25,073 nt of DNA, taken from Chrysophaeum taylorii. Lineage: Eukaryota > Sar > Pelagophyceae > Pelagomonadales > Pelagomonadaceae. Positions 7,178-25,073 of the stretch are shown one piece after another; the first letter of the stretch is position 1; each line of letters begins with the position of its first letter. The position numbers and the translations under genes are program-made. The DNA is taken from positions 1-25,073 of the forward strand of contig JAQMWT010000369.1 in assembly GCA_029834535.1 (NCBI GenBank), in the 5' to 3' direction. The notes under the pieces were generated by a model. It did no database searches. It saw only the letters and a program-made list of their open reading frames with translations, and was not told the origin of the DNA.

Positions 7178-7501
7178 TGGTTTTCTCAGACACCCGCCCC
7201 TCTTGGCCGGGCCAGTGCCTCAACAACCCGTTCTCCCAACCCGAACCGCGGGTGAAACCACCACACGCCCGATCTCAGCGTAACACTCACGCCATCACGA
7301 AAATCGGACAATCAAATGAGGGTAATAGCAAGAAGACAGCAAGAAAGCAATACAGATGCCGGGTACATTGGGTTCAGTGGAAGTGCAGGTGAGGATGTCA
7401 AGATGACACCCCCCCCCATAGTTGTAAGGTCAGTACCAGGGCAACAATCAGGGTAAGTCAGGTGGCAGGCAGGCAAGAGGGGGGATGGCGTTACTGCCAC
7501 A
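7178..7501 (-). repeat. gypsy-B 3' LTR
   Basis: A 324-bp LTR beginning TGTGGCAGTAACGCC on the minus strand and ending CTGAGAAAACCA. It matches the right-hand LTR (16136-16776 minus its LINE insert) along its full length, about 29 differences in 325 by eye. It sits just downstream of the polyprotein end and next to a purine tract, as a 3' LTR should. Confidence 0.85.
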
Positions 7502-7515
7502 GGAGCCCCCTACTT
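7502..7515 (-). promoter_or_regulatory. gypsy-B polypurine tract
   Basis: On the minus strand AAGTAGGGGGCTCC ends exactly at the TG that opens the 3' LTR. This is the expected site and composition for the plus-strand cDNA primer. Gypsy-C has a similar AGGGGAGTCC at the same place. Confidence 0.65.
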
Positions 7516-7536
7516 GAGATGAAGTCGTCCTCGACT

Positions 7537-7818
7537 TCAAGGGCGACGAAGGTCACGCTCACGAATAGTGCGATAAGCTCGGTCAGCTACACCAGCAGGA
7601 ACTTTGTTGCTGTGGAGGCCGAAGTTACTGACGAGGACATCGATTTCATCCGGGCGAAAATCAGTCACACAGGGTTCACAGCCCTCCATGTTTGGTCGTA
7701 GGCGTGTGAAGCTACCTCCGTCAGTGTCCTTGTATTCTGGTCTTAAGCGTCGCTCGGCCAGGGGCTTAGTAGGATCAAAAACACGAGGATCATCGCGCGG
7801 TCCCAAATCGGCATAGTA
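7537..7818 (-). pseudogene. gypsy-B polyprotein, extreme C-terminus
   Basis: About 90 codons (LGPRDD..., RLRPEYKDTDGGSFT, PCVTDFRPDEIDVLV, RAYRTIRERDLRR) that align end to end with residues 536-620 of the gypsy-C integrase frame. It is separated from the rest of the tail only by SINE copy 1, which cuts the YYADLG sequence. Deleting the SINE and one copy of its duplication restores the reading frame. The role of this tail is unknown. Confidence 0.8.
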
Positions 7819-8181
7819 ACTAACTAACTAACTAACTTCAGACCTCTCCCGAGCATGGGAGCCAGGCCGGACCGACAGGAGCCAGTCCGGAATCACGGGC
7901 CTGTAGACGAGGAGCGCCGAAAGGACGGTCGGCGGAGAGTGACCATCAAGCTTGTCGCCATGCGACGAGGAGACCGCGATGTGACTGACAACCAACTCGT
8001 CGATAACCTTCCGTCTGCGCCCCCCGGCCATACCCCGTCCCACTGCGAACGTTCCGGCTGCCAACCGGCCCGCCCGGGAGGCGAATAGGTGCCAACCTAC
8101 GCCGGGAGGGCGGATGCCCTCGCAAGGCTCAGGATTCATGAGGCACCGTCCTCCATCGCAACCGCCGTCGGCGATCAGGGT
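7819..8181 (-). mobile_element. SINE-like element, copy 1
   Basis: A 363-bp GC-rich element read on the minus strand: head TTACCCTGATCGCCG near 8181, tail (GTTA)n near 7819. The 13-bp sequence AATCGGCATAGTA lies on both sides (7806-7818 and 8182-8194) as a target-site duplication. Both flanks belong to the gypsy-B tail codons YYADL, so the insertion point is exact. It is about 97% identical to copy 2. No reverse transcriptase is encoded, and I see no convincing tRNA-type A and B boxes, so the origin of its promoter is open. The last 80 bases resemble the 3' end of the LINE at 16263-16556. Confidence 0.85.
7867..7890 (-). ncRNA. conserved 3' stem-loop of SINE copy 1
   Basis: A 10-bp stem with loop UCCU in the RNA sense (minus strand), including two G-U pairs. 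The same fold occurs at the equivalent place in the other copies and in the LINE. It is probably the recognition element for the LINE reverse transcriptase. Confidence 0.6.
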
Positions 8182-8872
8182 AATCGGCATAGTAGTGAAG
8201 CGCAACTGTATCATTGTCGTGATCATATTCTTCATAGACTTCGGCAACGTAGATACGCTTCTTCCGCGCGTTGGATCGTCCTTTAACCCTGAAAATCACG
8301 AACTTACCATGCTTGAAACGGTCGCGGTCTGAAGGTAAATGCAGAAGGGCTGAAGAAGTGTCGATGGTTGGCACTTTCAAAGGCACAATCTGTTGTACAG
8401 ATACTACAACCGACTCAGCATCATCGTCGTTGACGTCCTGAGTTTCGTAAACGACGGGAGAGATCTTTCTGGTAACTATGTAAGGCCCGCGCCAAATGGG
8501 CCGTAGCTTGTGGCGCGTCTTAGGCACGAAACGCAGAACATAATCACCTGGGGGAAACTGGATGTCAATTTGGTGGGCATCATAGTTGAGTTTTTGGCTC
8601 TCCTGTGCTTTGCGGTGAGCTCGTGTAACGAGTCGACTATAAAATTCAAACTTGTTCTTAAAGTCCATCAAAATCTGCTGACGTGATTGCGGTAGATCAC
8701 GCTGTTCACTCAAAAGATTGCAATCGGGTGGTAACAGGAGTTGCTTGCCAGTACGCATCATGCAAGGTATAATTTTCGTTCCCGGAATGCACATCCTATT
8801 GTACATGAATGCGACATATGGGAGGAAATTCGACCAATCTGGCTGACGCTGTTCATCGATCGCAGCTCTCAA
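8182..8872 (-). pseudogene. gypsy-B integrase C-terminal region and tail
   Basis: Continues the gypsy-B integrase after a frame change at about 8870. It reads LRAAIDEQ, then YVAFMYNRMCIPGTKI and the post-catalytic region, then LRPIWRGPYIVTRKISPVVYE. The last is the beta-barrel-like GPF/Y module typical of gypsy integrases. It continues into KHGKFVIFR and VAEVYEEYDHDNDTVALHYYAD, a conserved extra module also seen in gypsy-C. SINE copy 1 interrupts it at 8182. The continuous codons belong to one former polyprotein. Confidence 0.8.
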
Positions 8873-11061
8873 GAAGGCTTTAATATGTTGACACGTACAG
8901 TGTGGTTACTCTGAGGGTGATACGGAAGGGTAGTACGATAACGTACGTTGAATTGACGAACAAACGTGCGAAATAACCTGTTCGCGAGCTCATTTCCATT
9001 ATCCGTGACTATGCACCGTGGGAGACATCCCTCAAGTAAAATCTTGTCCACAAACGCGTTCAAAATGGAATAATCCTGCTTGGTGTTGATCAGAGCCAAC
9101 TTCAAGAAATGCGACGCTGCATCGTACATCACGAGTATGTACGTGTACAGGTCAGCGCCTCGCAGAGGTCCAATCAGATCCATACCTAGGACATAGCAAT
9201 CTCCGACGCGATTCGGTTGATAGAGCAAGCCATGACGCTTAGGCATGGTGGATCGAATCTTCGGGCAAATAATGCAGGCATTAACGAACTCATTAACTGA
9301 CGACGAGACGTTTGGCCACCAATACCGTTCTAAGATTTGATTCGCTGTGGAGTCTCGTCCTACATGGCCTCCGAACAATCCTCGGTGATGCATGGCGATT
9401 ACACGCTTTCGCGTATACTGAGGGACCACAATAAGACGTCGAGAATCCGAATCATCGACCTTATACAACACGTTGTTATCAACTTCATACGGTACGGACG
9501 ACTGATCGTCTTGATCTTTCTGTTCAGAATCGAGATTTCGTTTGATTCGCTTGCATGTGTCATCTTCAGCTTGTTCTTTCGCTATCTCATCGAGAGTGAT
9601 CTCATCCCCCGCTTGATCCGCAAAAGGGAGACGTTTGACGGAGTCAACTGGCTCATATTCGTACGAGAATTGAGGCGGTTGTACGTTCTGTCGCGTACTA
9701 ACTGCTGCCATAGCTGCGGAGGGTCCGCTGTCCGTCGGTATAGGCATCGTCACCGAAGAGAAGGTAAAACAGGCTGTGTCAGGTACATCGGTGGGGATTT
9801 CTTGGAAGATCAAATAAGCTTCATTGATCGGTTCCCCGTCTTCGTCTTTCTCGATCAACTTGTCGATAGGGTTGCGCGACAGACAATCCGGGATACGCAT
9901 GCCAGGGGAATTTCCAGGCTTATTTCCGAGCTCACGGTCGAATGCAGCAAGCCGCATAGCCCATCGCGCTAACTGTCCAGACGTATGATTCGAATCCCGA
10001 AGAAACGTTAAATTACGATGATCCGTATCTAATTTCGTCGGATGACCTTCGATGTAAAATCGGAAATTTTCAAGAGCGGAGAGTATTGCGAGGAGTTCCA
10101 AGCGCCGAGGATCATACTTCCTCATCGACTTAGGCACGGTTCGACTCCAGTACTCAATAACTCTCTCTTCTATTCTTTCTCTTCCATCGTCGTCAACGAC
10201 TGGTACCTTTTGAAATAGGTAAGCACCCAACCCATGCGCGGAAGCATCAGTTCGAATGTAAAAAGGCAACGAGTAATCAGGATGGTAGACGCCCTTCGAA
10301 GTGACAATAGCCTCGATGATGGCATCCCAAGCTCCCTGACACTCTTTCGTCCACTCGAATTTTACGTCCGGAAACGTCAGTTGTCTTAATGGCTCTGCAA
10401 CTTTCGCAAAATTCCTTACATAACGCCGGCGAAAACTCCCCATTCCAAGGAAAGACCGCACTTGCTTCTTAGGGTCAGCATCCGACAAAGTGCCAGGAAT
10501 TGGCATGTGTCCGATGGCTTCTAAAGACCTCGGTGATGGAAGAAGTCCGTTCGTGGTGGATAAATGACCCAAAAACGCAATGACTTCTTCCATGAAATGG
10601 ATCTTCTTGATATTGGCGCTGTGCCCATTCAAGGCGAGATGGGGAATAACTCGCACAAGGCACTGCAAGTGATTCTTTGTATCTGCGTAACCGGCGAGAA
10701 TATCGTCGATATGTACCACGAGATCACGATATAGCCATTTCGACAAGTCAGTGTTCAACTGCTTACAGAACAAACTTCCGGCTGGTTTGACTCCCAAAGG
10801 TAGACGCATGTAGCTGTACGCTCCCAGAGGACTAGTGAAGATTACCACATCTTGTGCATCTAGCGACAGACGCAAATTGTGATAGCCCCAACGAATATCC
10901 AAACTGAAACGACGGAACTTGTCGATGAGAAAAATCAACGCGTCAGCCATGCTCACACTCGGCCAGCTATCATCCTTGAGCAATGCATTAAGGCGCCGTA
11001 GTCGACAGCTGCCCTGTAAGCAATGGAAGTGCCAGGCTCAACACCTTTCTTAGGCAACATC
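8869..11061 (-). pseudogene. gypsy-B reverse transcriptase (palm), RNase H and integrase core
   Basis: A 704-codon frame (10983-8869) plus a 5' extension in another phase up to the SINE at 11062. RT: LDIRWGYHNLRL (motif A Asp 29), LPLGVKPAGSLFCKQ, and active site VVHIDDILAG (91-94). RNase H: IRTDASAHGLGAYLF (Asp 246), RRLELLA (Glu 296), DTDHRNLTFL (Asp 319/321). Integrase: zinc finger H533, H540, C570, C573; catalytic GMDLIGP (Asp 602) and VTDNGNE (Asp 661). The third catalytic residue, expected at 696, is Val (SNHTVRVN where gypsy-C has SNPAERAS), and the frame breaks just afterwards. A 1-base loss near 11000 separates the LPKKG part from the rest. Dead copy. Confidence 0.9.
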
Positions 11062-11436
11062 TAACTAACTAACTAACTAACTTCAGACCTCTCCCGAGCA
11101 TGGGAGCCAGGCCGGACCGACAGGAGCCAGTCCGGAATCACGGGCCTGTAGACGAGGAGCGCCGAAAGGTGGGTCGGCGGAGAGTGATCATCAAGCTTGT
11201 CGCCATGCGACGAGGAGACCGCGATGTGACTGACAACCAACTCGTCGATAACCTTCCGTCTGCGCCCCCCGGCCATACCCCGCCCCACTGCGAACGTTCC
11301 GGCTGCCAACCGGCCCGCCCGAGAGGCGAATAGGTGCCAACCCACGCCGGGAGGGCGGATGCCCTCGCAAGGCTCAGGATTCATGAGGCACCGTCCTCCA
11401 TCGCAACCATGCGGTCGGCAATCAGGGTAAGGGTAA
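11062..11436 (-). mobile_element. SINE-like element, copy 2
   Basis: A 375-bp copy in minus orientation with tail (GTTA)n at 11062 and head TTACCCTTACCCTGATTGCCG at 11436. It interrupts the RT codons ILMLPKKG of gypsy-B; the matching sequence resumes on the other side. The short repeat CAACATC flanks it (11055-11061 and 11437-11443), a 7-bp duplication, shorter than the 13 bp seen for the other two copies. About 97-98% identical to copies 1 and 3. No coding potential of its own. Confidence 0.85.
11112..11135 (-). ncRNA. conserved 3' stem-loop of SINE copy 2
   Basis: Same 24-base hairpin as in copies 1 and 3: 10 paired positions around a UCCU loop in the minus-strand RNA, about 30 bases before the GTTA tail. 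Confidence 0.6.
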
Positions 11437-11894
11437 CAACATCAAAATAGGGAAACCCCATGCAGAATTCGCGGGACGAATAACTCCGTCTCGGGTCCAT
11501 TCTCCAATGTGCATCCGCAAGCATTCAGTCTTTTCGTTCGACAACCGACATGGCGAGAGTTTGACGGGAGTCGGGTTCTCTTCTTTGAACCGGAGCGTCA
11601 CTTCAGGTGAATTAACAGGTCTCATCACATCATCGAAAAATGCGCACGAATACGAGGTTATACACGCTTCATCATCAGCTTCTCGTCATCATCGAAAGCA
11701 GGGTGCTCTGTAATACCCAATTCAGTCATCACCTCTTCGACCTGCGCGACGGTCGGAGGGATGACCTGCATGCTCTACTGATCCGCTAAATGAGGAGGCA
11801 TCACCGGCAAAGGTTGACCATGTTCGTCGTGAGGCGCGTCCGCCCACGGAACATCGTACTTATTGAAATACGCCGGTAGCTCCTTCGCGGTGCC
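11437..11894 (-). pseudogene. gypsy-B RT N-terminus and linker
   Basis: At 11628-11437 the frame reads MRPVNSPEVTLRFKEENP, VKLSPCRLSNEK and DGVIRPANSAWGFPILML, matching RT residues 1082-1144 of the gypsy-C polyprotein. Above it, 11640-11780 gives VIPPTVAQVEEVMTELGI and HPAFDDDEKLMM in one phase, with a stop before the RT part; this is the pre-RT linker (VDKVVQELGIPDNPHLDDEA in gypsy-C). The piece is cut from the rest of the RT by SINE copy 2. Confidence 0.75.
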
Positions 11895-12493
11895 TTATTC
11901 TTCAGCAGTTGCGGAGGGCTGGTTGTCGGCTTGGTTGCTCTGCATAACAGCAGTGGCGACGGTGCCCCCTGCAAAAGATGGAGCCGTCCAAGGCAATGTA
12001 ACCGGAGAGGGTGGCGGGGTGGTGGTGGCAGCAGCTGAAGGTGCAGGACTCGCAGAAGAATAGAGGTCATCGAGCGAGATCCATGACTCACTTCGAGTGG
12101 CAGGGTCGAGCGTTGGAATGCGCGACTCGACAGCAAAAGGTAAAAATCGCAGAATATGGTGATCGGGTTGGGCTATCGTAGTCGTCGCAATATTCCGCAA
12201 CTTACCCAAATTTAGAAGTGAAGGTTCAAACGAATTGTGCACTGCTAGCGCGATCCGCGTCATAGTCGCGGGTGGCACCATACTGCCAAGCATCTTCATA
12301 GCTGCTGTCTCTGAAACTTTCTCACCCCATTGCCACGTAGCAGGAACGGTCATAATTTCCAGGTGCATCTGCAACGTGAGTGGACGGGTGTTCTAGATAT
12401 GAGGTCCCATCTGCGATTTGTCGCGCGTCACTGTGAAGGTAGGGCCGGTAGCCGGGCGCGAAGATGAGAAACTGTCCACTATAATGAGCGAGT
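11895..12493 (-). pseudogene. gypsy-B C5-methyltransferase, C-terminal part, and linker
   Basis: Begins next to SINE copy 3 with SLIIVDSFSSSRPATGPTF and TVTRDKSQMGPH, matching gypsy-C residues from about 785. It then has LEIMTVPATWQWGE (motif IX region) and MLGSMVPPATMTRIALAVHNS, methyltransferase motif X (compare SVVPPDTMALLVLDLHNS in gypsy-C and the GNAVPP motif of standard C5 enzymes). Two frames are needed, changing near 12380. The remainder to 11895 is Pro/Ser/Ala-rich linker (SWISLDDLYSSASPAPS). The N-terminal half of the domain lies at 13897-14503 beyond the inserted SINE. Confidence 0.75.
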
Positions 12494-12847
12494 ATCGCCG
12501 ACCGCATGGTTGCGATGGAGGACGGTGCCTCATGAATCCTGAGCCTTGCGAGGGCATCCGCCCTCCCGGCGTAGGTTGGCACCTATTCGCCTCCCGGGCG
12601 GGCCGGTTGGCAGCCGGAACGTTCGCAGTGGGACGGGGTATGGCCGGGGGGCGCAGACGGAAGGTTATCGACGAGTTGGTTGTCAGTCACATCGCGGTCT
12701 CCTCGTCGCGTGGCGACAAGCTTGATGATCACTCTCCGCCGACCCACCTTTCGGCGCCCCTCGTCTACAGGCCCGTGATTCCGGACTGGCTCCTGTCGGT
12801 CCGGCCTGGCTCCCATGCTCGGGAGAGGTCTGAAGTTAGTTAGTTAG
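12494..12847 (+). mobile_element. SINE-like element, copy 3 (main part, plus orientation)
   Basis: The only copy reading on the plus strand. The head starts at 12494 (ATCGCCGACCGCATGG) and the (GTTA)n tail is reached at 12836-12847. Its last six tail bases, TTAGTT, are at 13891-13896, beyond a 1043-bp insert. The 13-bp sequence ATAATGAGCGAGT at 12481-12493 and 13897-13909 is the target-site duplication and encodes HSLII of the gypsy-B methyltransferase. Rejoining the two parts gives a 360-bp element with a perfectly phased GTTA tail, the same length as copy 1. Confidence 0.85.
12781..12804 (+). ncRNA. conserved 3' stem-loop of SINE copy 3
   Basis: CCGGACTGGC TCCT GTCGGTCCGG: 10 paired positions (two G-U in RNA) with a 4-base loop. 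A second hairpin CTCCC/GGGAG follows at 12810-12825 before the GTTA tail. Both are repeated in the LINE 3' end. Confidence 0.6.
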
Positions 12848-12938
12848 TCCTAACTACTAATCGACAGATGTTTGTCTGTCTGTCTGTTTGTTTGTCCCTC
12901 GATTTAGGGTAAGGATCAGGTAGGCGCGAGAGTAAGGA

Positions 12939-13475
12939 TCAGGTAGGCGCGAGAGCCAGACAGTGATCCTCCAAGCCGTCTACGGCGACCTCGCAGACTA
13001 TTTCCACGACCCGCGGCGGCTCTTTCAGCGCGCCATTCTCACGCCCCGTCGAAACGATGTTGTCGATGCTGACAACGCGCGCATGACCGCGGCCTTTTTT
13101 TCCCGGAGACGAGGCGTCGGAGTTCTTTTCGGCTGACTAGGTTGGGTCGGAAGACGACGCCTCGCTCTTTACAGTCGAGTTTTTTTCCCTGAGACACCGA
13201 CGGCTGACTGACTTTGTCGGAGCGAGTCTCGCAACCTCGACCCGTCGCACGGCCACTGCAACGGTACCAGATACATGATCGATCGTGTCGTTGTCACCGA
13301 GGCTCCTCCAACCTGTATCCCTTAAGGCCCGCCGACGCCAAACGATCACCAAGAGCCAGGGCCAGACGCCCCGCGAGGTCGGCGTCCTCTTGGCGAAGCC
13401 CGTCTTCTGCCACGTCCAGCTCTACGTGGCTCTCTGTCGATCGGCAACCCCGAGGATATCCTCTTCTGAGTCGAC
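12939..13475 (+). pseudogene. Pif1/Helitron-type helicase, C-terminal remnant
   Basis: A decayed helicase read with frame changes. 12963-13110 gives VILQAVYGDLADYF and RAILTPRRNDVVDADNARM, the Helitron/Pif1 block usually seen as RAILTPxNxxVDxIN. 13230-13310 gives RNLDPSHGHCNGTRYMI, equivalent to LLRNLDPxxGLCNGTRLIV. In the next frame 13330-13450 gives TITKSQGQT and VFCHVQLYVALCR, helicase motifs V-VI (TINKSQGQT, VFSHGQLYVALSR). In-frame stops occur between and after these blocks. The N-terminal Walker motifs are absent. Pif1-family helicases unwind DNA 5'-3', and in Helitrons they drive rolling-circle transposition. Family membership is clear; Helitron rather than host Pif1 is inferred. Confidence 0.8.
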
Positions 13476-13544
13476 GACTCCACCCTACCCCACACGTGCT
13501 GCGCAATACCGATAAGCCCCCTCCCGGCGTCTACACGCGCACTA

Positions 13545-13880
13545 TAGGTGAACTTACTGGGACCAGGTGAACTTACTGGGGTTTGAGATTGGGACTAGGT
13601 GAACTTAGTGACCAGGTGAACTTACTGGGACCAAGTGAACTTACTGGGGTTTTTAGAGTGAACGCAAAGGCTAGCGGCGTGTACGGATCAAAGCAGCTTA
13701 GATTGGCGGAGGTGAGAGCGACGAGCTCGAAGGAGAGTGGGGTGAGTGGGTGTGAGCACGAGTGGGCTTACAGTGTAAGTTACACCGAACTTACTGGGGT
13801 TAGAGATTGGGACTAGGTGAACTTACTGGGACCACGTGAACTTACTAGGGTTAGAGATTGGGACTAGGTGAACTTACTGG
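13545..13880 (+). repeat. degenerate tandem repeat, GTGAACTTACTGG core
   Basis: Nine copies of a GTGAACTTACTGG-like core in two blocks (about 13545-13653 and 13786-13880), separated by about 130 bp of non-repetitive sequence. Two unit types alternate: a short one of about 19 bp ending GGGACC and a long one of about 32 bp containing GGTTAGAGATTGGGACT. It lies inside the helicase segment, after the helicase, and ends 10 bp before the segment boundary. Confidence 0.85.
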
Positions 13881-13896
13881 CCTGCACTTGTTAGTT

Positions 13897-14503
13897 ATAA
13901 TGAGCGAGTGACCACCTGTAAATCCCAACGCTGACCCAGAACGGTCCCGTAAATTCGGTGGTACACGCGACAATAACGGCAGTTTCAAGCGAACATTGCA
14001 AGCAAGTAGGCGCGTGCGCGAGCACAGCAATTCTGGTGTGATACTATAAAAATCGACAATGCGCGGCACACAAAATTGGTGATGCACAAAAGGGATCACT
14101 GATGTTTCCTGCTCGAGCGTCCATCGTCCAATTACATAAGGTGCGTTGCGGAAATGACGCAGGACCCAAGAAGTAATAGTAGCGCCCTTGCGTGCGTCCC
14201 TGTAGTGCAAATTGGCAGTCGACCCATAGATTCACGGCGGACTTGCGTGAAATAAGAATGCTTCCGAAAATCTGAATGTAAATACGACAACACGAAGTCG
14301 TATGTACGACGATGAGATTCCCCCAGCTCGTGCAAACCATAGGGAATCTTCGGAAAATCGAGCTCAAAGGTGGCTCGGGCTTGAGGACAAGCATCCAAAG
14401 CCAAGACAATGCGAAATGAACTGCCAGATAGCTCATTGCATCGCCGGATACCCAACGTTGATCCTCCAGCGCCAGCAAAGTAGACGACGACAAAGGTGTA
14501 GGT
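13897..14503 (-). pseudogene. gypsy-B C5-methyltransferase, N-terminal part, catalytic Cys codon mutated
   Basis: Starts at about residue 385 of the gag frame: VVYFAGAGGSTLGI (motif I, SAM-binding F-x-G-x-G-G) and RIVLALDAC (motif II). A frame change near 14260 leads to FHASPP followed by TGA where gypsy-C has ASPPC, so the catalytic cysteine of motif IV is replaced by a stop at about 14234. Downstream, LEQETSV fills the ENV motif VI position, ITPELLCSRTRLLAC is motif VIII (the R-x-R of QxRxR), and the domain runs into SALGFTGGHSLII where SINE copy 3 interrupts it. Intact, it would transfer methyl groups from SAM to cytosine C5 in DNA. This copy is dead. Confidence 0.8.
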
Positions 14504-15655
14504 GATGGATATCCAAACCAAGGAGGCGCGCTTAGATAGCAGTTCCTTAGCGGTCGCCTCCATCTCCATTTCTGGTGCTTTTTTCACTTCTTCATCTGGA
14601 GGTGGCTCAGGAGGAGGTCTGTCACTTAAGACATCCTCCTCGACTTCACTCTCGTCAACGGCAGCCGTGAGAGTCGCATGACAAAAGTCCTCTGTGGCTT
14701 CTAGCTGCGTGGTGACACATCCTTCATGCTGCATGATCTCGCCTTCCATCTTACGCTGCAACCGCATAAACCACGCGTTAACCTCATCCTGGGTCTTGGT
14801 GATTTGCCCGGTGAGAGGCGAAAACGTGATACGAGTCACACTAGCAGCCCCCTTCTTGATCTGAAGTAGCTCTTCTTCGTCGCGAGGACGCGCTGAACCG
14901 TGGTCTGTATGATGCTGCGGGGTAGGCTCTGGTCGACTTCGCTGTGGCTGATCATCGGTCAGTGCCGATACAGCGTCATCTTCTTCGGGCGTAACACGCG
15001 TAGCATCCGGAGAGGCTGGCCGTGCCTCTCGAGCATGCGCCCGCGTGGATTCCTCCACCATTCGTCGAAGTCGATCGTTGTCGATCCGCTGCCGCTCCAC
15101 TTCTGAGCGTTGTTGTTGCGCGTCGCGGCGGGTGCGCTCAATTTCAAGTAGGACTTGCTCGAGCTGCGACTGGCACATCTCGAATCGCTCGTTGATGGCC
15201 TGTAGAATCTCGGGGTCGGTATCCACTCGAAAATCTGCCGCTCTCGTATTCGCGGATGGTGGCCTAGGAGGTGCACTCTCCTCTGGTCCACGCATCGCAG
15301 TAGTGACTCCAGGGTCCGCTCGAGATGACTCCGCAGCATTCATCGCACGTTCGTAGGGTCGTGCGTACGGGAACGTCGGCTCACCCGGTCTTGAAGTTGC
15401 GTCTGGCGCAACCGTAGCTCCCCCTTCAACGGCGCGTGGATCCGGAAGGATGACCGCGCTTGGGGGGTTGTCGAGGCTGCCCGATGACCTTGCCTCTCTT
15501 CTGATGCCGCTTTCTTCGGCTTCCGGCCGTGGAAAGGGCGTACTCAACGGTGTTCTTCCAATAGACGAAAACGGAGTCGCTGCACTGAGTCGTTGCAGAC
15601 GCGCCTGTGCGCCCCGAAACCACGGCGGTCGTTCTGTCATTGGCCTCTCTGCCAT
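14504..15655 (-). pseudogene. gypsy-B gag N-terminal region
   Basis: About 385 codons from Met at 15655. The first 140 residues are low-complexity, Pro/Arg/Ser-rich. Residues 150-205 (EILQAINERF, LEQVLLEIERTRRDAQQQ, EVERQRIDNDRLRRMVEE) form a strong coiled coil. Residues 270-325 (RITFSPLTGQITKTQDEV, WFMRLQRKMEGEIMQ) resemble the start of a gypsy capsid. After about 330 comes an acidic, Pro-rich linker that joins straight to the methyltransferase. No zinc knuckle and no protease are present, whereas gypsy-C has about 585 residues of other sequence, including a protease-like region, before its methyltransferase. This copy therefore appears internally deleted. The gag call rests on position and composition. 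Confidence 0.6.
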
Positions 15656-16083
15656 GACCGCGCTTTGCCCGGATAATAGGATTAATCCGAACGCTCACAA
15701 CTCGCTTGTTGTATTCCTTTTCGTCAGACGACAATTGCCGGCAGCCGTCTGACTGCGCGCTGTACCGGTGCGCTGGACTTACGGTAGGATTTGCCTTGCG
15801 CGTGAAGGCTGTGGACGGCCTTCCCGGTGCTGTCGCTCGCCGTCAGGGAGGTGGTCTGCCTCGCGCGAGCTAGGTTAGAGCTTACTTGTTTTGTTGCCTT
15901 GTGGTTAGGTCTTACGATTGCTTTGCCCGGTGGAGTCGTAGAGACTCCGCTCCCCGTTCGATCCGAATCACGCAAAATGAACCCCGCGGCGCTACCCGCG
16001 ATCCCCTGGATCTTCACCCACAAATGCGTCGGCTTCGCACTCACACGACCGTTACGAACCGACTCGCCGCCGAAAAACAGGAG

Positions 16084-16112
16084 ATCGATAGTCCGGGAGT
16101 TGGACTATCGAT
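16084..16112. repeat. 11-bp-stem perfect hairpin in gypsy-B leader
   Basis: ATCGATAGTCC and its exact complement GGACTATCGAT separated by GGGAGTT. It lies next to the candidate primer-binding site, where retroelement RNAs often carry structured priming or packaging signals. Confidence 0.8.
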
Positions 16113-16113
16113 T

Positions 16114-16129
16114 CCCGTTTCTGAGACCA
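16114..16129 (-). promoter_or_regulatory. candidate primer-binding site of gypsy-B
   Basis: On the minus strand TGGTCTCAGAAACGGG starts six bases after the CA that ends the 5' LTR. It begins with the TGG expected to pair with a tRNA 3' CCA. Its first nine bases are also complementary to the LTR end (CTGAGAAACCA), forming a hairpin across the junction, so a self-primed mode is conceivable. The matching tRNA was not identified. Confidence 0.45.
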
Positions 16130-16307
16130 CTTTAGTGGTTTCTCAGATACCCGCCCCTCTTGGTTAGGCCAGAGGCCTCGACAACCCTTTCTCCCAACCC
16201 GAACCGCGGGTGAAACCACCGCGCGCCCGATCTCAGCGTAACACCTCACGCCATCACGAAATAACTAACTAACTAACTTCGGACCTCTCCCGGGCATGGG
16301 AGCCAGG

Positions 16308-16331
16308 CTGGGCCGGCAGTAGCCGGTCCAG
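16308..16331 (-). ncRNA. LINE 3' stem-loop
   Basis: In the RNA sense CUGGACCGGC UACU GCCGGCCCAG pairs 9 of 10 positions. It has the same length, place and loop pattern as the SINE hairpins although several paired bases differ. The second hairpin CTCCC/GGGAG follows, then GTTA repeats. Confidence 0.6.
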
Positions 16332-16347
16332 GATCACAGAGCAAAAA

Positions 16348-16556
16348 TCACACAGTTGGGGTAGAGGCGAGGGATGAAAGTGCGTGGATGGCGGACCGCC
16401 ACTGCGCGCGGTCTTGTGCGAGGTCGTGCCACGAGTTGAAGGGGATGTCGCATTTCCGGAGTGCCTTGGCGAGCGACCTCCCGTACGTCATCTGCGGAGC
16501 CCCCGGTGGGCGCTTGGAGCGGACCCAAGACGAGAGCATCTTGCGAGGGAGTCGGG
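16348..16556 (-). pseudogene. LINE ORF2 C-terminus
   Basis: Reads SRLPRKMLSSWVRSKRPPGA, then PQMTYGRSLAKALRKCD, SWHDLAQDRAQWRSAIH and a natural stop. The pattern R.xGxP...TxxRxL...L......W...AQDRxxWR is the common C-terminal signature of non-LTR retrotransposon polyproteins, downstream of the reverse transcriptase. RT and endonuclease are lost by 5' truncation. The clade cannot be fixed from this much sequence. Confidence 0.8.
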
Positions 16557-16776
16557 ACACCTCACGCCATCACGAAATCGGACAATCAAATGAGGGTAAT
16601 AGCGAGAAGACAGCAAGAAAGCAATACAAATGCCTGGTGCGTCGGGTTCAGTGGAAGCGCAGTTGAGGATGTCAAGATGACACCCCCCCCCTAATTGGAA
16701 GGTCAGTACCAGAGCAACAATCAGGGTAAGTCAGGTGGCAGGCAGGCAAGTGGGGGGGATGGGCGTTACTGTCACA

Positions 16777-17203: not shown

Positions 17204-17726
<523 letters not shown>

Positions 17727-18054
17727 GGCGAATTCTAGGGGCTACCTGGCGGTGCCTTCGAATCCTGGCTCGCCGATCGCGTCCGTGCCCTTGGTGGGAT
17801 CACTGGACGAGGATGGCCGTTCTCCCGCCACGCGACCACAAACAACTTCCGTGCCTGGTCCTCTCAACTTGAGGATCGGCTGTTGCTTTATGATCGAGGA
17901 TAATCGAAAATCAGAAATCAGGGTGACATGCGTCACGGAAAAGGAAGATGATGTCATAGAGAACACTGACATCATCGGAACGGAGTAGGGTGCCCCTGAC
18001 AAGGGGGGGCCCTAGAAGAGGGGTAAGCCTGAGGAGGCGGAAGTTGCCGCTACA
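17727..18054 (-). repeat. gypsy-C 3' LTR (left end uncertain)
   Basis: Starts TGTAGCGGCAACTTCC at 18054 on the minus strand, directly after a purine-rich tract and 40 bases downstream of the polyprotein stop. Gypsy-B has the same arrangement. The left boundary is not proven because the second LTR lies outside the window; it is bounded by the helicase repeat at about 17726. Sequence similarity to the gypsy-B LTR is not obvious. Confidence 0.55.
17947..17976. promoter_or_regulatory. inverted repeat in gypsy-C LTR, CRE-like half sites
   Basis: GATGATGTCA and its exact complement TGACATCATC separated by ten bases. Each arm contains TGACATCA or its complement, close to the bZIP site TGACGTCA. It sits in the U3-like part of the LTR, where enhancers are expected. 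The regulatory role is inferred. Confidence 0.35.
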
Positions 18055-18094: not shown

Positions 18095-19987
18095 CTAGCG
18101 CGAGGAGCGCGGCTTCGCCTTACGAGCATCTCGTGAACGAATCTTCTGGTAAACGCGGGTGATGATCGGTTCAGGAACTCGACCACTGCGTAAAGTAAAC
18201 TTGGGGACCAACACGTCAATCTCGTGCGGAGCGAAATCCGTGACACAAGGAGTTGTGTTGGAGGAAATTCGGGACTTGTCGGTGAAACTTCGACCTTCAA
18301 CGTCCTTGAACTCGGGCTTGAGCTTGCGGTGTGAAAGGTGAGAGGTCGGCTTGAAATAAGCGACATCATCGTTCGGACCCAAATCGGAATAGAAATGTAG
18401 AGCAACACGATCATTTTGGTAATCGTAAGGCTCGTAAACCTCAGGAACATAAATCTTCTTGCGCCAATCGGAGCGCTTCCGGTCAGGAATTCGGAAAACA
18501 ACAAACTTACCGTGCTGATAATCATCACGGAAGGTTTCTTCGGGTTTGCGGATGGTTTGATCAACAATCGGAGGTACCATCACAGGCGTGATCTGACTTA
18601 CATGAACACGCCGCTCTTCGGGCGGCGAGTCGAGAGACTCAATCCTATAGGTGACCGGGGAGAGGCGTTCCTTGATAATAAACGGCCCTCGCCATTCCGG
18701 TCGAAGTTTGTTCTGAAGGAAAGGGATGTAGAGCAAAACGTGCGATCCTTCCTTGTATTCAACATCAACATGATCAGCATTGTAAGCCAATCGCTGTTTC
18801 TTCAAAGCTTTATCACGAGCTTCGCGGACGATCTTTGTATAATATTTCAATCGTTCGCGAGTCTCGGCGACTGCATCAGAGCGAGTCTTCGGCAATAATC
18901 GTGTATCAAAATCCATGAGCGTGTAGTCAGTCGGCAGCATCGGCTGACGGTTCAGGCGCAGCATAAAGGGAGAAATCTGCGTGCCTGGAATAAACTTGCG
19001 GTTGTAGCAAAACGCAATATAATGAGCAAAGTCAGGCCAATCCGTGATGTTCCGGCCTTGAAGGCAAGCACGGAGGAAGGCCTTGATAAGTCGGCTGGCA
19101 CGCTCAGCCGGGTTCGACTGGGCATGATAAGGAATCGTAGTTTGGTATCGTATGATAAAGAGATGGCAAAACCCGCGCATCAACTTGTTCACGAACTCTT
19201 TACCGTTGTCGGTACGAATCATCTGGGGCAAGTAGCCCTTGAGGAGAATGTTAATGACAAAAGACTCAAGGACAGACTCAGCAGTCTTATCGTTCAAAAC
19301 ATCCAGAATCAAGAAATGCGAGAACGGATCAAAAAATACTAGAAGATACGTCTCGGGACCAGCGCTGGGCAAGGGTCCAAATAAATCCATGCAAAGAACA
19401 GCACCATCACCATCGTAGACGGGCTGCTGCAAGAGTCCATCTCGTTTCGGCTCAGGCGTACGAGCTTTCTGACAAACTAAGCATTCAGCAATGAAGACTC
19501 CAACTTCGTTCGACATGTGAGGCCACCAAAATCGTTCTTGGATAGCCTGGACGGTACTGTGACGTCCCATATGACCACCGTTAACCGGAGTGTCATGATA
19601 GAGTCGAATAATGCGTTTGCGCAACGTAGCAGGTGCAACAATCATCGGGTGCGAATCAGCAGAAATGCGGTAAAGAACATCTTTAACGACTTCGAATCGT
19701 TCGTTCGCTCGGGAACGTCGCGGCGTCTGACCTTGGGCCATTCGGTAGCGAATATCCTCGCAAGTAGCATCAGATTCTTGCTCACGTGCGATCTCAGCGA
19801 GCGTCATATTATCGGGTATCTTATCGATATAATCTTTGTAAGCGGCTGCGTCCTTGAAGATCTGTGGCTCATCACGCGCACGGTTCTTCCGACGTTGTCT
19901 CGTAGCGTGAGACGTAGCCAATTTCATCGGATCCTTTTCAGGGTCTTCGTCTTCGTCTTCCGGCAGTTCGGTCGTAATAAACGACAT
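18095..19987 (-). CDS. gypsy-C integrase and C-terminal tail (polyprotein part 3)
   Basis: A 630-codon frame. Residues 131-172 are the HHCC zinc finger (H131, H139, C169, C172; FWWPHMSNEV between). The catalytic core has CMDLFGP (Asp 201), RTDNGKEF (Asp 260) and NPAERA (Glu 295), so the D,D-35-E triad is complete. LRPEWRGPFIIKERLSPVTY (428-447) is the GPF/Y-type module. Residues 488-540 (YQHGKFVVFR, IYVPEVYEPYDYQNDRVA, LHFYSD) form an extra conserved module, also present in gypsy-B and in the fragment at 6283, whose alternating pattern suggests a small beta-barrel reader of the chromo/Tudor kind; this is inference. The Met at 19987 overlaps the stop of the RNase H frame (TAATG), so it was probably joined to it. 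Its product would integrate the cDNA. Confidence 0.9.
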   Translation of the reverse strand: MSFITTELPEDEDEDPEKDPMKLATSHATRQRRKNRARDEPQIFKDAAAYKDYIDKIPDNMTLAEIAREQESDATCEDIRYRMAQGQTPRRSRANERFEVVKDVLYRISADSHPMIVAPATLRKRIIRLYHDTPVNGGHMGRHSTVQAIQERFWWPHMSNEVGVFIAECLVCQKARTPEPKRDGLLQQPVYDGDGAVLCMDLFGPLPSAGPETYLLVFFDPFSHFLILDVLNDKTAESVLESFVINILLKGYLPQMIRTDNGKEFVNKLMRGFCHLFIIRYQTTIPYHAQSNPAERASRLIKAFLRACLQGRNITDWPDFAHYIAFCYNRKFIPGTQISPFMLRLNRQPMLPTDYTLMDFDTRLLPKTRSDAVAETRERLKYYTKIVREARDKALKKQRLAYNADHVDVEYKEGSHVLLYIPFLQNKLRPEWRGPFIIKERLSPVTYRIESLDSPPEERRVHVSQITPVMVPPIVDQTIRKPEETFRDDYQHGKFVVFRIPDRKRSDWRKKIYVPEVYEPYDYQNDRVALHFYSDLGPNDDVAYFKPTSHLSHRKLKPEFKDVEGRSFTDKSRISSNTTPCVTDFAPHEIDVLVPKFTLRSGRVPEPIITRVYQKIRSRDARKAKPRSSR

Positions 19988-20685
19988 TATGAAGTGGCAG
20001 CCAGAGACGGGAACTCCTCGGTCATCAACAGGTCGGGAAGCTCTTGGAACACTAAATACGCGTGGTTCAAAGGTTCTCCAAACTCGTCAGTCTCGATGAC
20101 ATGATCTATCGGGTTGCGGGAGAGACAGTCAGGGATACTCATTCCCGGTGACTTTCCCGGCTTGTAACCAAGTTCAGGGTCAAAATTGGCGAGGCGCATC
20201 GCCCAACGAGCAAGCTGCCCAGACGAGTGCGTCGCCTTACGTAAAAACGTCAAATTTCGGTGATCGGTCTCCAAAACAGTCCGGTGCCCTTCGATGTAGG
20301 CTCGAAAGTGCTCTAGAGAAAGTATAACTGCCAGCAGCTCTAGCCGACGGGGCTCATAATTCCGCATCTCCTTCGGCACAGCTCGGCTCCAGTATTCAAT
20401 TACTCGTTCTTCTCGAGTCACTCTTCCGGCATCGTCCTTGACTTCGACAATCTGGAAGAGATATGCTCCAAGTCCATCCTTGGAAGCATCGGATCGGATC
20501 TGAAAAGGCAGATCATAATCGGCGTGGTAGACTCCACGGGAATCAACCAAAGCTTCAATAATCGTATCCCAAGCTTTCTGACACTCGGGCGTCCACTCGA
20601 ACTTTACACCTTCGAGGCATAATCGTCTCAACGGTTCCACAATCTTCGAGTAGCCCTTCACATATCGCCGGCAATAATTACTCAT
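19987..20685 (-). CDS. gypsy-C RT thumb/connection and RNase H (polyprotein part 2)
   Basis: A 232-codon frame starting within the RT connection (SFIGMSNYCRRYVKGYSKIV reads through the Met). RNase H residues: IRSDASKDGLGAYLFQ (Asp 66), RRLELLAV (Glu 116), ETDHRNLTFLR (Asp 141), then SGQLARWAMRL and GKSPGMSIPDCLSRNPI, typical of Ty3/gypsy RNase H. The start codon is an artefact of a frame break near 20723. The homologous segment is joined to RT without a break in gypsy-B. It ends FPSLAATS with TAA overlapping the ATG of the next frame. Confidence 0.9.
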   Translation of the reverse strand: MSNYCRRYVKGYSKIVEPLRRLCLEGVKFEWTPECQKAWDTIIEALVDSRGVYHADYDLPFQIRSDASKDGLGAYLFQIVEVKDDAGRVTREERVIEYWSRAVPKEMRNYEPRRLELLAVILSLEHFRAYIEGHRTVLETDHRNLTFLRKATHSSGQLARWAMRLANFDPELGYKPGKSPGMSIPDCLSRNPIDHVIETDEFGEPLNHAYLVFQELPDLLMTEEFPSLAATS

Positions 20686-23600
20686 GCCGATGAAAGAGCG
20701 TATCTGGGTCTTCGGGAAGTATTCGGTAAAGTACCTGGAATCGGCATCTTCGGCAGTGCTTCCAGCGTCTTCGGATTCGGCTTCAAGCCTTCTGGGGTAG
20801 AAATGTGTCCCAGAAATTCTATATCATCCTTGAGAAGGTGGAACTTCGCGGTTCGACCGCTGTACCCTCTCTGTGCCAAATGACACATCACTTCGATCAA
20901 AACTTGTAAATGTCGATGAAGATCGTCGGATCCCATCATAATATCGTCAACAAACGCAACCAAGTCTTGATACATCCATTTCGAAAGGTCGCTCGCCATT
21001 TGCTTGCAGAAAAGAGCTCCGGCCGTCTTCACACCTAGAGGTAATCGCAAGAAACTGTGAGCGCCAAGTGGGCTAACCATCGTGACAGCGTCCTGCGCTG
21101 CCGGATCCAAACGAAGGTTGTGGTATCCCCATCTAATATCAATGCATGTCCGCCATCGTCTCATCGCGAGAAAGGCTAAAGCATCATCTTGTCGAATGTT
21201 TGGCCAACTGTCATTGACCAATTGATCGTTGAGCTGACGTAAGTCAACTGCAGCACGGAACGCGTTTGACGTTCCAATCTCAGCTCCTTTCTTCGGAAGC
21301 ATCAACACAGGAAAGCCCCAAGGTGAGTTGGCCGGACGAATGACTCCATCCCGGCACCACTCGCTGATCTGCTTGCGGAGGCAATCGAGCTTCGCAGGCG
21401 TCAATCGGTAGGGCGTCATCTTTATCGGTCGCGGATTCGCGTCTTTGAATCGTAGAGACACAGGAGGCGAGTCCACAGGTCTCATAATCGGGTCGAAAAA
21501 GGCCCAAGAATATTGCACACAGTGACGGAGCATCAGTTTCGCCTCGTCATCTAAGTGCGGATTGTCAGGAATTCCCAGCTCCTGCACAACCTTGTCAACT
21601 TCTTCCTTCGTAGGAATTTTAACTTTCATTGCTTCGTTGTCCTTGACATGCTCTGGAGTCTGCGGCAGTGGTGCACCCTCGGCATCGCGCGGCGCATCTT
21701 TCCATGGCACATCGAACTTTTTCTCGTATTTTAGTTTCACTTCCGGGTGGCTTTTGTTGATCCTCTCGCCTTTGACACGAACACTCGGCTCGCTCTTAAT
21801 TTTCGGTTCCCGATCTCGCTCAGGATCTGGCGGAACGTCTAAATTTGGTTCTCGGGGGGGCCCAGCAGAAGAAGCATGAGACGTCCCCGGCTCATCTGTT
21901 GCAGGCGGAATCAACGGTACCTCTGGAGGTTTCCATTTGGTGAGATCTTGAAGATCATCATTCGACACCCATCTTACGACACGTGTGCGCGTGTTTAACA
22001 GCGGAACTTGTACGTGACGACGGGTGGTTTCGTCAATTTGCAAATAATAATCAAACGGTCGGTCTGCAGGACTCAACGCTGACGGCAAAGCTTCGCCGCT
22101 CAGGTGAAATTCCCTGGTCACAGAGTTGTGCAGATCGAGCACTAATAAAGCCATCGTGTCAGGTGGCACGACGGACGCCAAGTGTTTCGACGAGGTCGTC
22201 CTGGAGAAGCCGGCCCAATCAAAATCAGGGGACATCGTCAGCAACTCCGAAGTCATTTCCAGATTCAGAGATCTGTAATCGGAACGGTGCGGTCCTACGC
22301 GAAGCGGGACACGCGTAACAGTATAAGCTGCGTCTGTCGCGGCTCGTGATGATCCTAAATTGTTCATCTGAAGTAAATGTCGTTCGTCGGCGTAGCCAAG
22401 TGCTGCGGCGAACTTTTGCTGCATATTCTTGCAAGTCTTTGGAACTGCGCGCAAATGGAGCGGATGGCTCGAAACCAACAATCGCACGCGACAGCTCATC
22501 AAACTAGGAGTTATGTCGCAAAAATTGACGACGTACACGTAAGGGTGCAAACGTGCAACGTAAGAAATAATCGAAGCCTCCTGCTCTATCAACCACATGA
22601 AGAAACCAGCCATCTTGCATAATTTCATCGTCCAGTGGGTAGCGGTAACTCCTTTCCCAACATCTCTGGAGGTCAAGTTGCATAGAGCGGAGTGTACGCA
22701 GGGTGGCGACGCGACACACATCGACGACGACCATTCCGCGTAGGGTAAATAAGATTCGATCAACCGTAAGGTTGTAACATAGCGACCACACAGTGTGTGC
22801 TGCACCACAGGAATATTCGGAAAGTTCTTGTGGTGGATCTGGTTGGCGGTGTCCGACGCATCGAGTGCTAGCACGACTCGAAACGACGCCCCACACGTTT
22901 CGTTGGCTCGTTGGAGACCTAAAGTACTGCCTCCGGCTCCACTGAACAGCATCACCACCTTGCGATAAATGATTGGAAGCCATTGAACCTTTTCATATCG
23001 GCGGCGGATCTCCGCTTCGGTGATCTCGCGGCATTTCTTTTCATCTTCTTCCGACCTTCGAGCGAAATCGTCGCTGCCTTCAGGTCGTTTGAGGGTGGAC
23101 TTGTCCGTCATAGCGGTCGTAGCGTCCTTCTGCACCGTGCTCAGCAGCATCGGCGGGGGAGATTCGTCGCATCGCGTCAAGTGACTAGCGACAGAAACGG
23201 TGAAAGAAAGGTTCCCCTTGTCGTATCCTTCTTCACATTCTTTCGTAAGTTCGTCGATCGTAGAGACGTTCAACTCATCTTCGTACCTAACGATATCACC
23301 AATCGCAAGGACTTCGCCTTGAGTGACGACCGTCGGCACTTCTTCCGTGGCAGTAACCGCCACCCGAGCAGCGGACCGGTCGTGCTCTTCGCAAGAAGAA
23401 CACATTCCTTCGACAACTCCCAAACTGCTCGTTCTCAGCAAACGTAGCGACGAAACCTGTCCTCTTTCCATAGGTTTCGACAAAATAACCGGTAGATTGT
23501 ACGTTCGACCGGGCTCGATTTGAAGCGTGCGCGCAGCATAAGCTATTACTTCTCGCGCGTCTTCTCCCGGAGCTGGGGAGAATGTGGTCGTAGCATGTCC

Positions 23601-24728
23601 CCGCGTAGCCAAGGCTACCTTACGTTCCGGCGGCGGGCTTCGGAGATCTTTAATCGTGCTCAAACGAGCGTAAACTCGAGTCTTGACCAGGTCGAGACTC
23701 TGCCGAAAGGCATCGTGTTGATGATTGTAAATTGGTACGGTTATCGGATTTCGATCGTAAATAGCCCGAAAGGTCACGATTGGTGCATCGACTCGTTCAT
23801 CCTTAACTTTAATCTTCTTGCGCCCGTAGACGACTTGGGTTCGACAAAAACAGATCCGATCATGGGGAAAATCCACGATGGCTCCTAAAACTCGTATATC
23901 GCGCCCTCCCAACAGGAACAGATAATTCGTATCGGCTACAATAGCGACAATGGGGGCAGCGAAGTCGTCGGCGAAAGCGACCCGAAGGGCGATCCAACGA
24001 TGGATCGTCGTCGTATTCAATCCTGATCCGTACAGCTTGCGCTTAATCGGAAGTTCGCCTTCATCGAAAATCAACTGATCTTTGGTCAACTTTTTGACCA
24101 TTTCTCGGCAAATATAAGAAACATCTGCCATTCCATCGACACCGATGGTCGTCGAGAATTTCGGTCCGTCACGATTCCTGTAGATGTGACAGGCTATAAA
24201 CGTTAGAGTACCCGTATCTAAACAACTGAGGGTAATCAAATCATCTTCGATCGTCTTGCCGTCTCGCGGCGTCAACGAAGTGTGAGCACATCGGGCTCTG
24301 ATTCGCTCATCTCCGGGGTTGGGCATCGATACCGCGGCTTGAGCTTTCGTATTATCTGTTGTTGGCGTCCTCGCCATAACGCTCGCGGCAGCCTCTTTAT
24401 CTGGCGGCTTCCGCTCTTCCTCCAAGACAATCTCCGAGGGAATAAACGCTGGTAGGGGATCCTGGTCTTCGTAATCCTTGGAAGCAAACCACCCCTCCCA
24501 TAAATCATTCATTTCGTCGTTCCATAATTCATCGGTGGATTCCTTCGTCGCCTGCTGATCCTCATCAGCATCGGCGATCGGTTCCGTGTCAGCTGCGGCT
24601 TTGAGTCTGCAGCTGCGCGGTTGTTCTGTGGCTTCTTTAGCAGAAATTCCGAGCTTTCGTCCACCAATCCTGCAGGTTCCACGTCGGCTCGTCTTCGTCC
24701 ACTTGAGAACGCTGCTAATCTTCTTCAT
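20682..24728 (-). CDS. gypsy-C polyprotein part 1: protease-like, C5-DNA-methyltransferase, reverse transcriptase
   Basis: A 1348-codon uninterrupted frame. Residues 190-295 are protease-like: GVDGMADVSYI at 196-206 where DTGAS is usual, then LLGGRDIRVLGAIVDF at 272-287, like the closing ILGxDxL segment. Residues 588-868 are a C5 cytosine methyltransferase: motif I LFSGAGGSTLGL (594-605), II VVLALDAS, IV ASPPC with catalytic Cys 677, VI IEQE (714-717) in place of ENV, VIII CRVRLLV (746-752), IX YRSLNLEMTSELLTMSPDF (818-836), X HLASVVPPDTMALLV (849-863). Residues 1082-1310 are Ty3/gypsy RT with CIDIRWGYHNL (Asp 1197), LPLGVKTAGALFCKQ and active site FVDD (1259-1262). A one-base frame break follows PIPGTLP near 20723. 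The first Met is tentative, since the phase stays open upstream to about 24855. Confidence 0.92.
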   Translation of the reverse strand: MKKISSVLKWTKTSRRGTCRIGGRKLGISAKEATEQPRSCRLKAAADTEPIADADEDQQATKESTDELWNDEMNDLWEGWFASKDYEDQDPLPAFIPSEIVLEEERKPPDKEAAASVMARTPTTDNTKAQAAVSMPNPGDERIRARCAHTSLTPRDGKTIEDDLITLSCLDTGTLTFIACHIYRNRDGPKFSTTIGVDGMADVSYICREMVKKLTKDQLIFDEGELPIKRKLYGSGLNTTTIHRWIALRVAFADDFAAPIVAIVADTNYLFLLGGRDIRVLGAIVDFPHDRICFCRTQVVYGRKKIKVKDERVDAPIVTFRAIYDRNPITVPIYNHQHDAFRQSLDLVKTRVYARLSTIKDLRSPPPERKVALATRGHATTTFSPAPGEDAREVIAYAARTLQIEPGRTYNLPVILSKPMERGQVSSLRLLRTSSLGVVEGMCSSCEEHDRSAARVAVTATEEVPTVVTQGEVLAIGDIVRYEDELNVSTIDELTKECEEGYDKGNLSFTVSVASHLTRCDESPPPMLLSTVQKDATTAMTDKSTLKRPEGSDDFARRSEEDEKKCREITEAEIRRRYEKVQWLPIIYRKVVMLFSGAGGSTLGLQRANETCGASFRVVLALDASDTANQIHHKNFPNIPVVQHTLCGRYVTTLRLIESYLPYAEWSSSMCVASPPCVHSALCNLTSRDVGKGVTATHWTMKLCKMAGFFMWLIEQEASIISYVARLHPYVYVVNFCDITPSLMSCRVRLLVSSHPLHLRAVPKTCKNMQQKFAAALGYADERHLLQMNNLGSSRAATDAAYTVTRVPLRVGPHRSDYRSLNLEMTSELLTMSPDFDWAGFSRTTSSKHLASVVPPDTMALLVLDLHNSVTREFHLSGEALPSALSPADRPFDYYLQIDETTRRHVQVPLLNTRTRVVRWVSNDDLQDLTKWKPPEVPLIPPATDEPGTSHASSAGPPREPNLDVPPDPERDREPKIKSEPSVRVKGERINKSHPEVKLKYEKKFDVPWKDAPRDAEGAPLPQTPEHVKDNEAMKVKIPTKEEVDKVVQELGIPDNPHLDDEAKLMLRHCVQYSWAFFDPIMRPVDSPPVSLRFKDANPRPIKMTPYRLTPAKLDCLRKQISEWCRDGVIRPANSPWGFPVLMLPKKGAEIGTSNAFRAAVDLRQLNDQLVNDSWPNIRQDDALAFLAMRRWRTCIDIRWGYHNLRLDPAAQDAVTMVSPLGAHSFLRLPLGVKTAGALFCKQMASDLSKWMYQDLVAFVDDIMMGSDDLHRHLQVLIEVMCHLAQRGYSGRTAKFHLLKDDIEFLGHISTPEGLKPNPKTLEALPKMPIPGTLPNTSRRPRYALSSA
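22125..22967 (-). other. C5 cytosine-DNA-methyltransferase domain within gypsy-C pol
   Basis: Residues 588-868 of the polyprotein, about 280 residues, compact for a C5 methyltransferase. All landmarks follow in the standard order: SAM pocket F-x-G-x-G-G, acidic residue of motif II, PPC nucleophile, catalytic Glu of motif VI, R-x-R of motif VIII, then IX and X (VVPP for the usual AVPP). The target-recognition stretch between VIII and IX is only about 65 residues. Motif VI reads EQE instead of ENV, also EQE in gypsy-B, so this is a lineage feature rather than damage. The domain should methylate cytosine in DNA using SAM. Activity and target sequence are unknown. Confidence 0.88.
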
Positions 24729-25073
24729 AAATCTATCCTTTTCTTCCGGCGGCGTATCCGTGTCTCGATCCGTAAGTATCGAACCCGTTTCGGGGGGGTC
24801 CGCAGGAAAGATGGCGTCGTCCCCGACGTCAACTCTGTCGTAAAATCGTCGTCTGCATACTCGCGCTGGTCATCGTCTCGTCAGTCGAATGCGCGCAACG
24901 AGCTAGCACTGCATGAATTCATGTCTGGCTCACAGCCAGTTCGGTCGCCGGCGGTCATCTCTGAGGTCAAGATAAGCCGATGTCATCGAGTGCTTCCTCA
25001 TCAAAAATAACGGTGGGTCGTCCGTGGACCGACCTTCTTCAAATAACGTTATCGCGGGACACTGGTTCCACAA
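24729..25073 (-). other. gypsy-C sequence upstream of the first Met
   Basis: The phase of the 1348-codon frame stays open for about 40 codons upstream (RVDVGDDAIFPADPPETGSI and TDRDTDTPPEEKDRF), then reaches a TGA at about 24855. This suggests that gag continues here in another phase. Beyond that I see no identifiable domain, LTR or repeat before the window ends. Confidence 0.4.

Follow-up and report, generated by a model that had tools for sequence, protein, structure and literature searches.

Retroelements that carry a cytosine methyltransferase have been described in several algae. According to the parts of PMC5890265 available to us, the carriers in Symbiodinium are LINE and DIRS elements, the carrier in Klebsormidium is a Gypsy element, and the captured enzymes are under purifying selection. 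For the SymbioDIRS-Dnmt3 domains, CG methylation has been demonstrated in yeast and a methylation of cDNA has been proposed; the Klebsormidium Gypsy enzyme gave zero methylation in yeast, a result that its authors call inconclusive (PMC5890265). Citing that 2018 paper, the accessible text of PMC12344493 mentions DIRS elements and LTR elements of the Copia type that carry a DNMT3. Another kind of methyltransferase is reported in a DNA transposon (PMC12477816, available part), the available part of PMC9033089 deals with a host enzyme only, and PMC5963040 does not mention methylation. A search of titles and abstracts, covering few subscription journals, returned no Gypsy enzyme with the motif EQE described below and no genome with both Gypsy and copia carriers.

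Here we analyse a stretch of 25,073 bp from Chrysophaeum taylorii (the window) together with the rest of its 70.8-Mb genome. Sequence comparison confirms that positions 22125-22967 of the window encode a C5-cytosine methyltransferase (MTase) domain within a Ty3/gypsy polyprotein. Like KnitGypsy-Dnmt3 of Klebsormidium nitens (PMC5890265), it is a C5-MTase inside the Pol of a Gypsy LTR element and under purifying selection. However, as far as the available text describes it, KnitGypsy-Dnmt3 is a Dnmt3 relative in an element with a DIRS-like repeat arrangement, whereas here there is no Dnmt3 likeness among the listed PDB matches, the LTRs are ordinary and motif VI reads EQE. SymbioDIRS-Dnmt3 and SymbioLINE-Dnmt resemble the present domain in being many-copy retroelement C5-MTases under purifying selection, and SymbioDIRS-Dnmt3 also shares its frame with the reverse transcriptase (RT), as here; the Symbiodinium carriers belong to other classes (DIRS, LINE), though, and activity of the DIRS enzyme has been shown in yeast, whereas that of the present enzyme is predicted. 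E. coli Dcm and the phage C5-MTases have the motif order I-IV-VI-VIII-IX-X and the key residues of the Gypsy MTase, but they are stand-alone enzymes with 15% identity to it over 265 columns. The initial annotation had named dinoflagellates and charophyte algae as precedents for capture by LTR retrotransposons; the charophyte Gypsy element bears this out, whereas the dinoflagellate carriers reported in the available text are LINE and DIRS elements (PMC5890265). A Gypsy Pol with a DNMT has already been published, and the EQE-type MTase found here appears to be a separate variant of that arrangement.

The methyltransferase domain and its place in the polyprotein

Table 1. Features of the window, and of other stretches of the same genome where an L number is given.
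Feature	Position	Strand	Basis or remark
C5-cytosine methyltransferase (MTase) domain, family A	22125..22967	-	residues 635-915 of the frame; profile evidence
Motif I, FSGAGG	22929..22946	-	SAM binding in known enzymes
Motif IV, PC	22698..22703	-	catalytic Cys in known enzymes
Motif VI, EQE replacing ENV	22578..22586	-	profile alignment and copies
Motif VIII, RVR	22482..22490	-	profile alignment and copies
Motif IX Arg	22272-22274	-	profile alignment and copies
Motif X, VVPP	22161..22172	-	profile alignment and copies
Open frame, 1395 aa stop-to-stop: protease-like region, MTase, RT	20682..24869	-	longer gag-pol frame, broken in this copy
Protease-like region	23868..24137	-	DGMADVSY (24137-24114) to LLGGRDIRVLGAIVDF (23915-23868); assigned solely by motif and position
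Reverse transcriptase, RVT_1 (PF00078)	20802..21296	-	Pfam, 2.5e-12
RNase H, RT_RNaseH (PF17917)	20182..20520	-	Pfam; frame differs from MTase-RT frame
Integrase zinc-binding and core (PF17921, PF00665)	19124..19633	-	Pfam; frame differs from MTase-RT frame
3' LTR, 338 bp	17717..18054	-	matches L033 and L036 at their 5' ends, where the 5' LTR lies
Second Gypsy element, family B, broken	7168..16776	-	bounded by repeat pairs taken as LTRs
Family B MTase, first part, broken	13863..14497	-	sequence comparison
Family B MTase, last part (motif IX-X), broken	12234..12494	-	sequence comparison
Host Dnmt2	L009:1498-2577		PDB 1g55, 3.9e-39
Host Dnmt5-type gene	L032:6467-9997		PDB 7r76, 2.9e-129; record name Rad8
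Copia element carrying a C5-MTase unlike the Gypsy one	L030:3096-8954; domain also listed at L011-L029		after protease-like region, one frame

The features are collected in Table 1. On the minus strand the domain reads through 281 residues with no stop, and the plus strand of the same interval has stops in the frame tried; the strand of the initial annotation is corrected to minus. Residues 635-915, counted from stop to stop, become the 588-868 of the initial annotation when numbered from the Met at residue 48. That the MTase and a Ty3/gypsy RT are encoded in one frame, as had been proposed, is borne out by the window frame, by open frames of family A of up to 3063 and 3067 aa elsewhere in the genome, and by the domain order of the copy L033, where a 2890-aa part contains MTase, RT, RNase H, H2C2 and rve. 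The further proposal of an order protease-MTase-RT holds for the last two; the protease is assigned by motif and position, with zero Pfam matches to E 1 in the window frame or to E 0.5 in the L033 frame. Compared with L033, the window copy is broken downstream of the RT and upstream in the gag part, with pieces in different frames, and the contig ends (25073) before its 5' LTR is reached. The LTR evidence for family A is pooled across copies, each stretch having at most one LTR per copy, and the full element would be near 10.3-10.5 kb when summed from parts of different copies. At least 138 copies of the family A domain, at 80-100% identity, are present in the genome (138 of 985 candidates scored), and the domain is stop-free in 115 of these 138. 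A GTTT microsatellite of about 107 units (window 17219-17652) lies near the outer end of the 3' LTR.

The Pfam profile PF00145 matched the window MTase alone with 22.5 bits (cut-off 22; E 8.9e-5), over residues 3-59 only, which include motif I, and the whole 1395-aa frame with 17.8 bits; the NCBIfam dcm profile gave 18.5 bits for the window copy (cut-off 100.65). The PF00145 search that the initial annotation had suggested as a check thus comes out above the cut-off, but barely, and on this profile alone the call is marginal. We therefore compared an alignment of ten relatives from the same genome, including the window copy and covering families A, A' and B (A1), with a reference set of 12 C5-MTase sequences (A2), consisting of E. 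coli Dcm, the host Dnmt2 and ten phage proteins, three of which are annotated as hypothetical or of unknown function only. The two profiles matched with a score of 106.0 (probability 98.3, E 2.3e-14) over 265 columns, against 14.1 for the reversed profile and 21.0 for the best of 100 column shuffles. In this comparison motifs I, IV, VI, VIII, IX and X are in register, with EQE under ENV, and it is this match that bears out the motif order claimed earlier beyond motif I. The profile of family A alone scored 67.9 over 75 columns and that of family B alone 77.3 over 256 columns. PF00145 was found in all ten members of A1 (E up to 0.1), and its cut-off was passed by five of six single domains, the sixth (L037) reaching 20.3 bits. 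Two members of family B reached 39.2 and 37.2 bits in two stretches each; for one of them the best stretch lies at motif IX-X, for the other at motif I. Because of the profile match with its controls, the presence of PF00145 throughout A1 and the matches of the family B members, the resemblance to C5-MTases is far beyond chance. The marginal PF00145 match of the window copy, limited to residues 3-59, would also be expected if the resemblance were accidental, an unrelated Rossmann-like domain having a short loop rich in glycine; we consider this extremely improbable, since the profile match is colinear over the full length and exceeds its reversed and shuffled controls, and PF00145 matches family B at both ends.

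Comparisons with characterised proteins bear on the substrate of the enzyme. As a single sequence, the window copy matches DNMT2 structures best among PDB entries (E 0.036, non-significant). The sole match of the A1 profile to E 1 is 8yf3, a cytosine-specific methyltransferase (E 0.83), which is also the sole match of a family B member to E 10 (E 0.29), both non-significant; a DNMT3 chain is absent among the PDB matches listed for the window copy, the profile and the B member. Two PHROG families of DNA methyltransferases match all four domains given, with E values from 1.2e-6 to 4.7e-11. The DNMT2 matches could be taken to mean that the domain methylates RNA, either element RNA or a primer tRNA, as Dnmt2 does on tRNA, rather than DNA; RNA methylation has been proposed for the SymbioLINE enzymes (PMC5890265, available part), and a CpG footprint is absent (see below). 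We regard this as unlikely in view of the phage DNA methyltransferase families and of 8yf3 as the only match of both the profile and the family B member.

Retention in two Gypsy families and the catalytic residues

The window contains a second, broken Gypsy element, family B, with repeat pairs at 7286-7501/16561-16776 (92% identity) and 7168-7302/16125-16261 (89%) that are probably its LTRs. A genome search with 90 residues of this element gave 150 rows (150 of 576 candidates scored), of which at least 137, at 52-100% identity, were taken as family B and near kin; the other 13 have 47-49% identity, and five of them overlap family A rows. A repeat of about 360 bp occurs three times in the window (7817-8183, 11062-11430 and 12494-12848; 97-98% identity, one copy inverted) and also within the integrase region of L035 (8405-8685).

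Families A and B are 43% identical in the MTase, 35% in the protease-like part and 62% in the N-terminal part of the RT, and in a tree their MTases form one branch with support 100/100. A comparison of family A (L033) with A' (L035) gave a dN/dS of 0.059 in the MTase, 0.022 in the RT, 0.076 in RNaseH-integrase and 0.151 in the linker that precedes the MTase. These values are rough, since dS amounts to 1.5-1.9, with saturation in the protease-like part. Within families, pN/pS is 0.18 for A and 0.21 for B, in a set that includes two duplicate copies. Judged by the A/B identity together with the dN/dS and pN/pS values, the MTase predates the split between A and B and has been kept since, which shows that the common ancestor of the two Ty3/gypsy families carried an MTase and that selection has retained it in Gag-Pol.

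To what extent this MTase is catalytically intact may be judged from 26 copies that are stop-free in the domain, 12 distinct ones of family A and 14 of family B; L001 and L006, which duplicate the window copy and L036, were left out, and the family B copy L065 carries an internal deletion. The Cys of motif IV and the first Glu of motif VI are each kept in 25 of the 26 copies, and both Arg residues of motif VIII in all 26. In 25 copies Gln occupies the second position of motif VI, where 12 of 12 reference sequences have Asn; motif X has AS or GS where known C5-MTases have GN, and A' (L035) has Gln at the position of the motif IX Arg. The substitutions of ENV by EQE and of GN by AS or GS could, from the sequence, reflect altered or lost catalysis. 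They would be in line with a catalytically dead or altered domain whose task in the polyprotein is to bind nucleic acid or SAM, as a cofactor of the RT for instance. We consider this rather unlikely, because the Cys, the first Glu and the motif VIII Arg residues are kept in nearly every copy and across families that are only 43% alike, and mere binding would not need them.

Other methyltransferases of the genome and relatives elsewhere

A PF00145 search of the genome gave at least 57 matches (123 of 474 candidates scored), the top two being the host Dnmt2 and a Dnmt5-type gene. The PDB record 7r76, named Rad8, is presumably fungal Dnmt5; in fungi, Dnmt5 is an upkeep enzyme. Its presence in several algal groups is reported in the available text of PMC9998398. 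An antisense frame overlapping the Dnmt2 gene resembles a chlorophyll a/c antenna protein, and the genome also has rbcL.

The next 18 PF00145 matches (L011-L028) all have one other C5-MTase domain, in which ENV is kept; at L030, the copy available at length, this domain lies in a copia element. The copia frame at L030 contains RVT_2 (1.6e-38) and an rve match of 17.2 bits, under the cut-off, and its MTase domain is about 550 aa long; the profile of this domain against C5-MTases scored 74.6 over 143 columns, compared with at most 25.1 for shuffles. As in the Gypsy elements, the C5-MTase of the copia element follows a protease-like region and precedes the next Pol domain, all in a single frame; unlike them, the copia element has RVT_2, keeps ENV and carries the much longer domain. 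There is no profile match between the copia and Gypsy MTases, and a tree in which the two were held together had a p-AU of 0.538, on long branches and with 12 other rows, so that a common origin is neither shown nor rejected. The window itself contains a degraded copia-type element (1-6600), with pieces of an integrase (23% identity to L030) and an RT; a candidate for a decayed end of a copia MTase in this region (P0007) was rejected, its score of 59 being below that of the best of 500 shuffles (61).

Outside this genome, no relatives of the MTase were found in a set of 5.8 billion proteins, the length limits of which excluded many polyproteins and fragments; this absence is weak evidence because of these limits and because the genome's own long frames were missed as well. 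Pattern scans of viral and genome contigs with A1 confirmed no relative outside the own genome, and a scan with the copia alignment gave one match (L082; 28% over 74 residues, with an E of 5e-7 relative to candidate stretches only). A tblastn search with the window MTase against phages returned three records with E 0.3-0.5. The suggestion that the EQE enzymes are a separate lineage is thus plausible: EQE is common to families A and B, and within searches limited by length and pattern there was no relative outside the genome.

Possible role of the enzyme

The reading that we favour, and to which we give an even chance, is that of an ancestral C5-MTase of Gypsy elements, kept by selection, whose target would be the cDNA or the new insertion of the element itself. 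The sequence shows that the domain is present and constrained; its activity, target, packaging and benefit would be as follows. The element protease may release the MTase together with the RT, and the MTase would travel in the virus-like particle and methylate cytosines of the element's cDNA or new insertion, so that the element DNA would integrate already marked. The mark could then shield or conceal the copy, or pass it on to the host Dnmt5-type enzyme for upkeep. The colinear profile match, the kept catalytic residues, the low dN/dS, the sharing between A and B and the single frame with the RT support this role, and methylation of the own cDNA is favoured because of the precedent of the Symbiodinium DIRS elements (PMC5890265, available part). 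Against it stand EQE and AS/GS, the motif IX Gln of L035, the protease-like region without a Pfam match, the Klebsormidium yeast result and the CpG statistics described next.

The observed over expected CpG ratio is 1.2-1.3 in family A stretches and 1.0-1.1 in family B and copia, compared with 1.13-1.57 in host stretches, which are GC-richer than the elements; CpG depletion as a sign of self-methylation is not seen in family A. Between copies, CpG transitions exceed GpC transitions by 9% in A, 27% in B and 14% in copia, and CpG transversions are raised too. The contexts in which C-to-T changes are highest are CCT and ACT in A, and ACT and ACG in B, in copy pairs that are non-independent and include codon effects. 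Decay driven by methylation has thus left no clear mark on the elements. It should be noted that the CpG test says little, since host DNA is likewise without CpG depletion.

Methylation by the MTase might also serve the host, or be directed at rivals such as viruses or other elements, the element gaining indirectly. Antiviral roles have been suggested for transposon methylases in general (PMC6338049, available part), and a function of this kind is one option in the available text of PMC5890265. We consider it very unlikely here, because the frames remain in multi-copy LTR elements and a domesticated single copy was not seen, in searches that were not dedicated to finding one. A wider view is that Gypsy and copia elements both seed de novo methylation on their own DNA, the Gypsy elements via the EQE-type enzyme, and that the host Dnmt5 maintains it. 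The host C5-MTases behind this view are Dnmt2 and the Dnmt5-type gene only, among at least 57 PF00145 matches of which 20 were examined, and we regard it as distinctly doubtful.

Hosts direct cytosine methylation against elements of this kind, and an element that makes the mark itself would turn this silencing tool to its own use. In one small genome, the polyproteins of two Gypsy families and a copia family include a C5-MTase at a comparable position, and the Gypsy version adds a divergent catalytic motif. With many natural copies in a genome of 70.8 Mb, the purpose of retroelement methyltransferases becomes directly testable.
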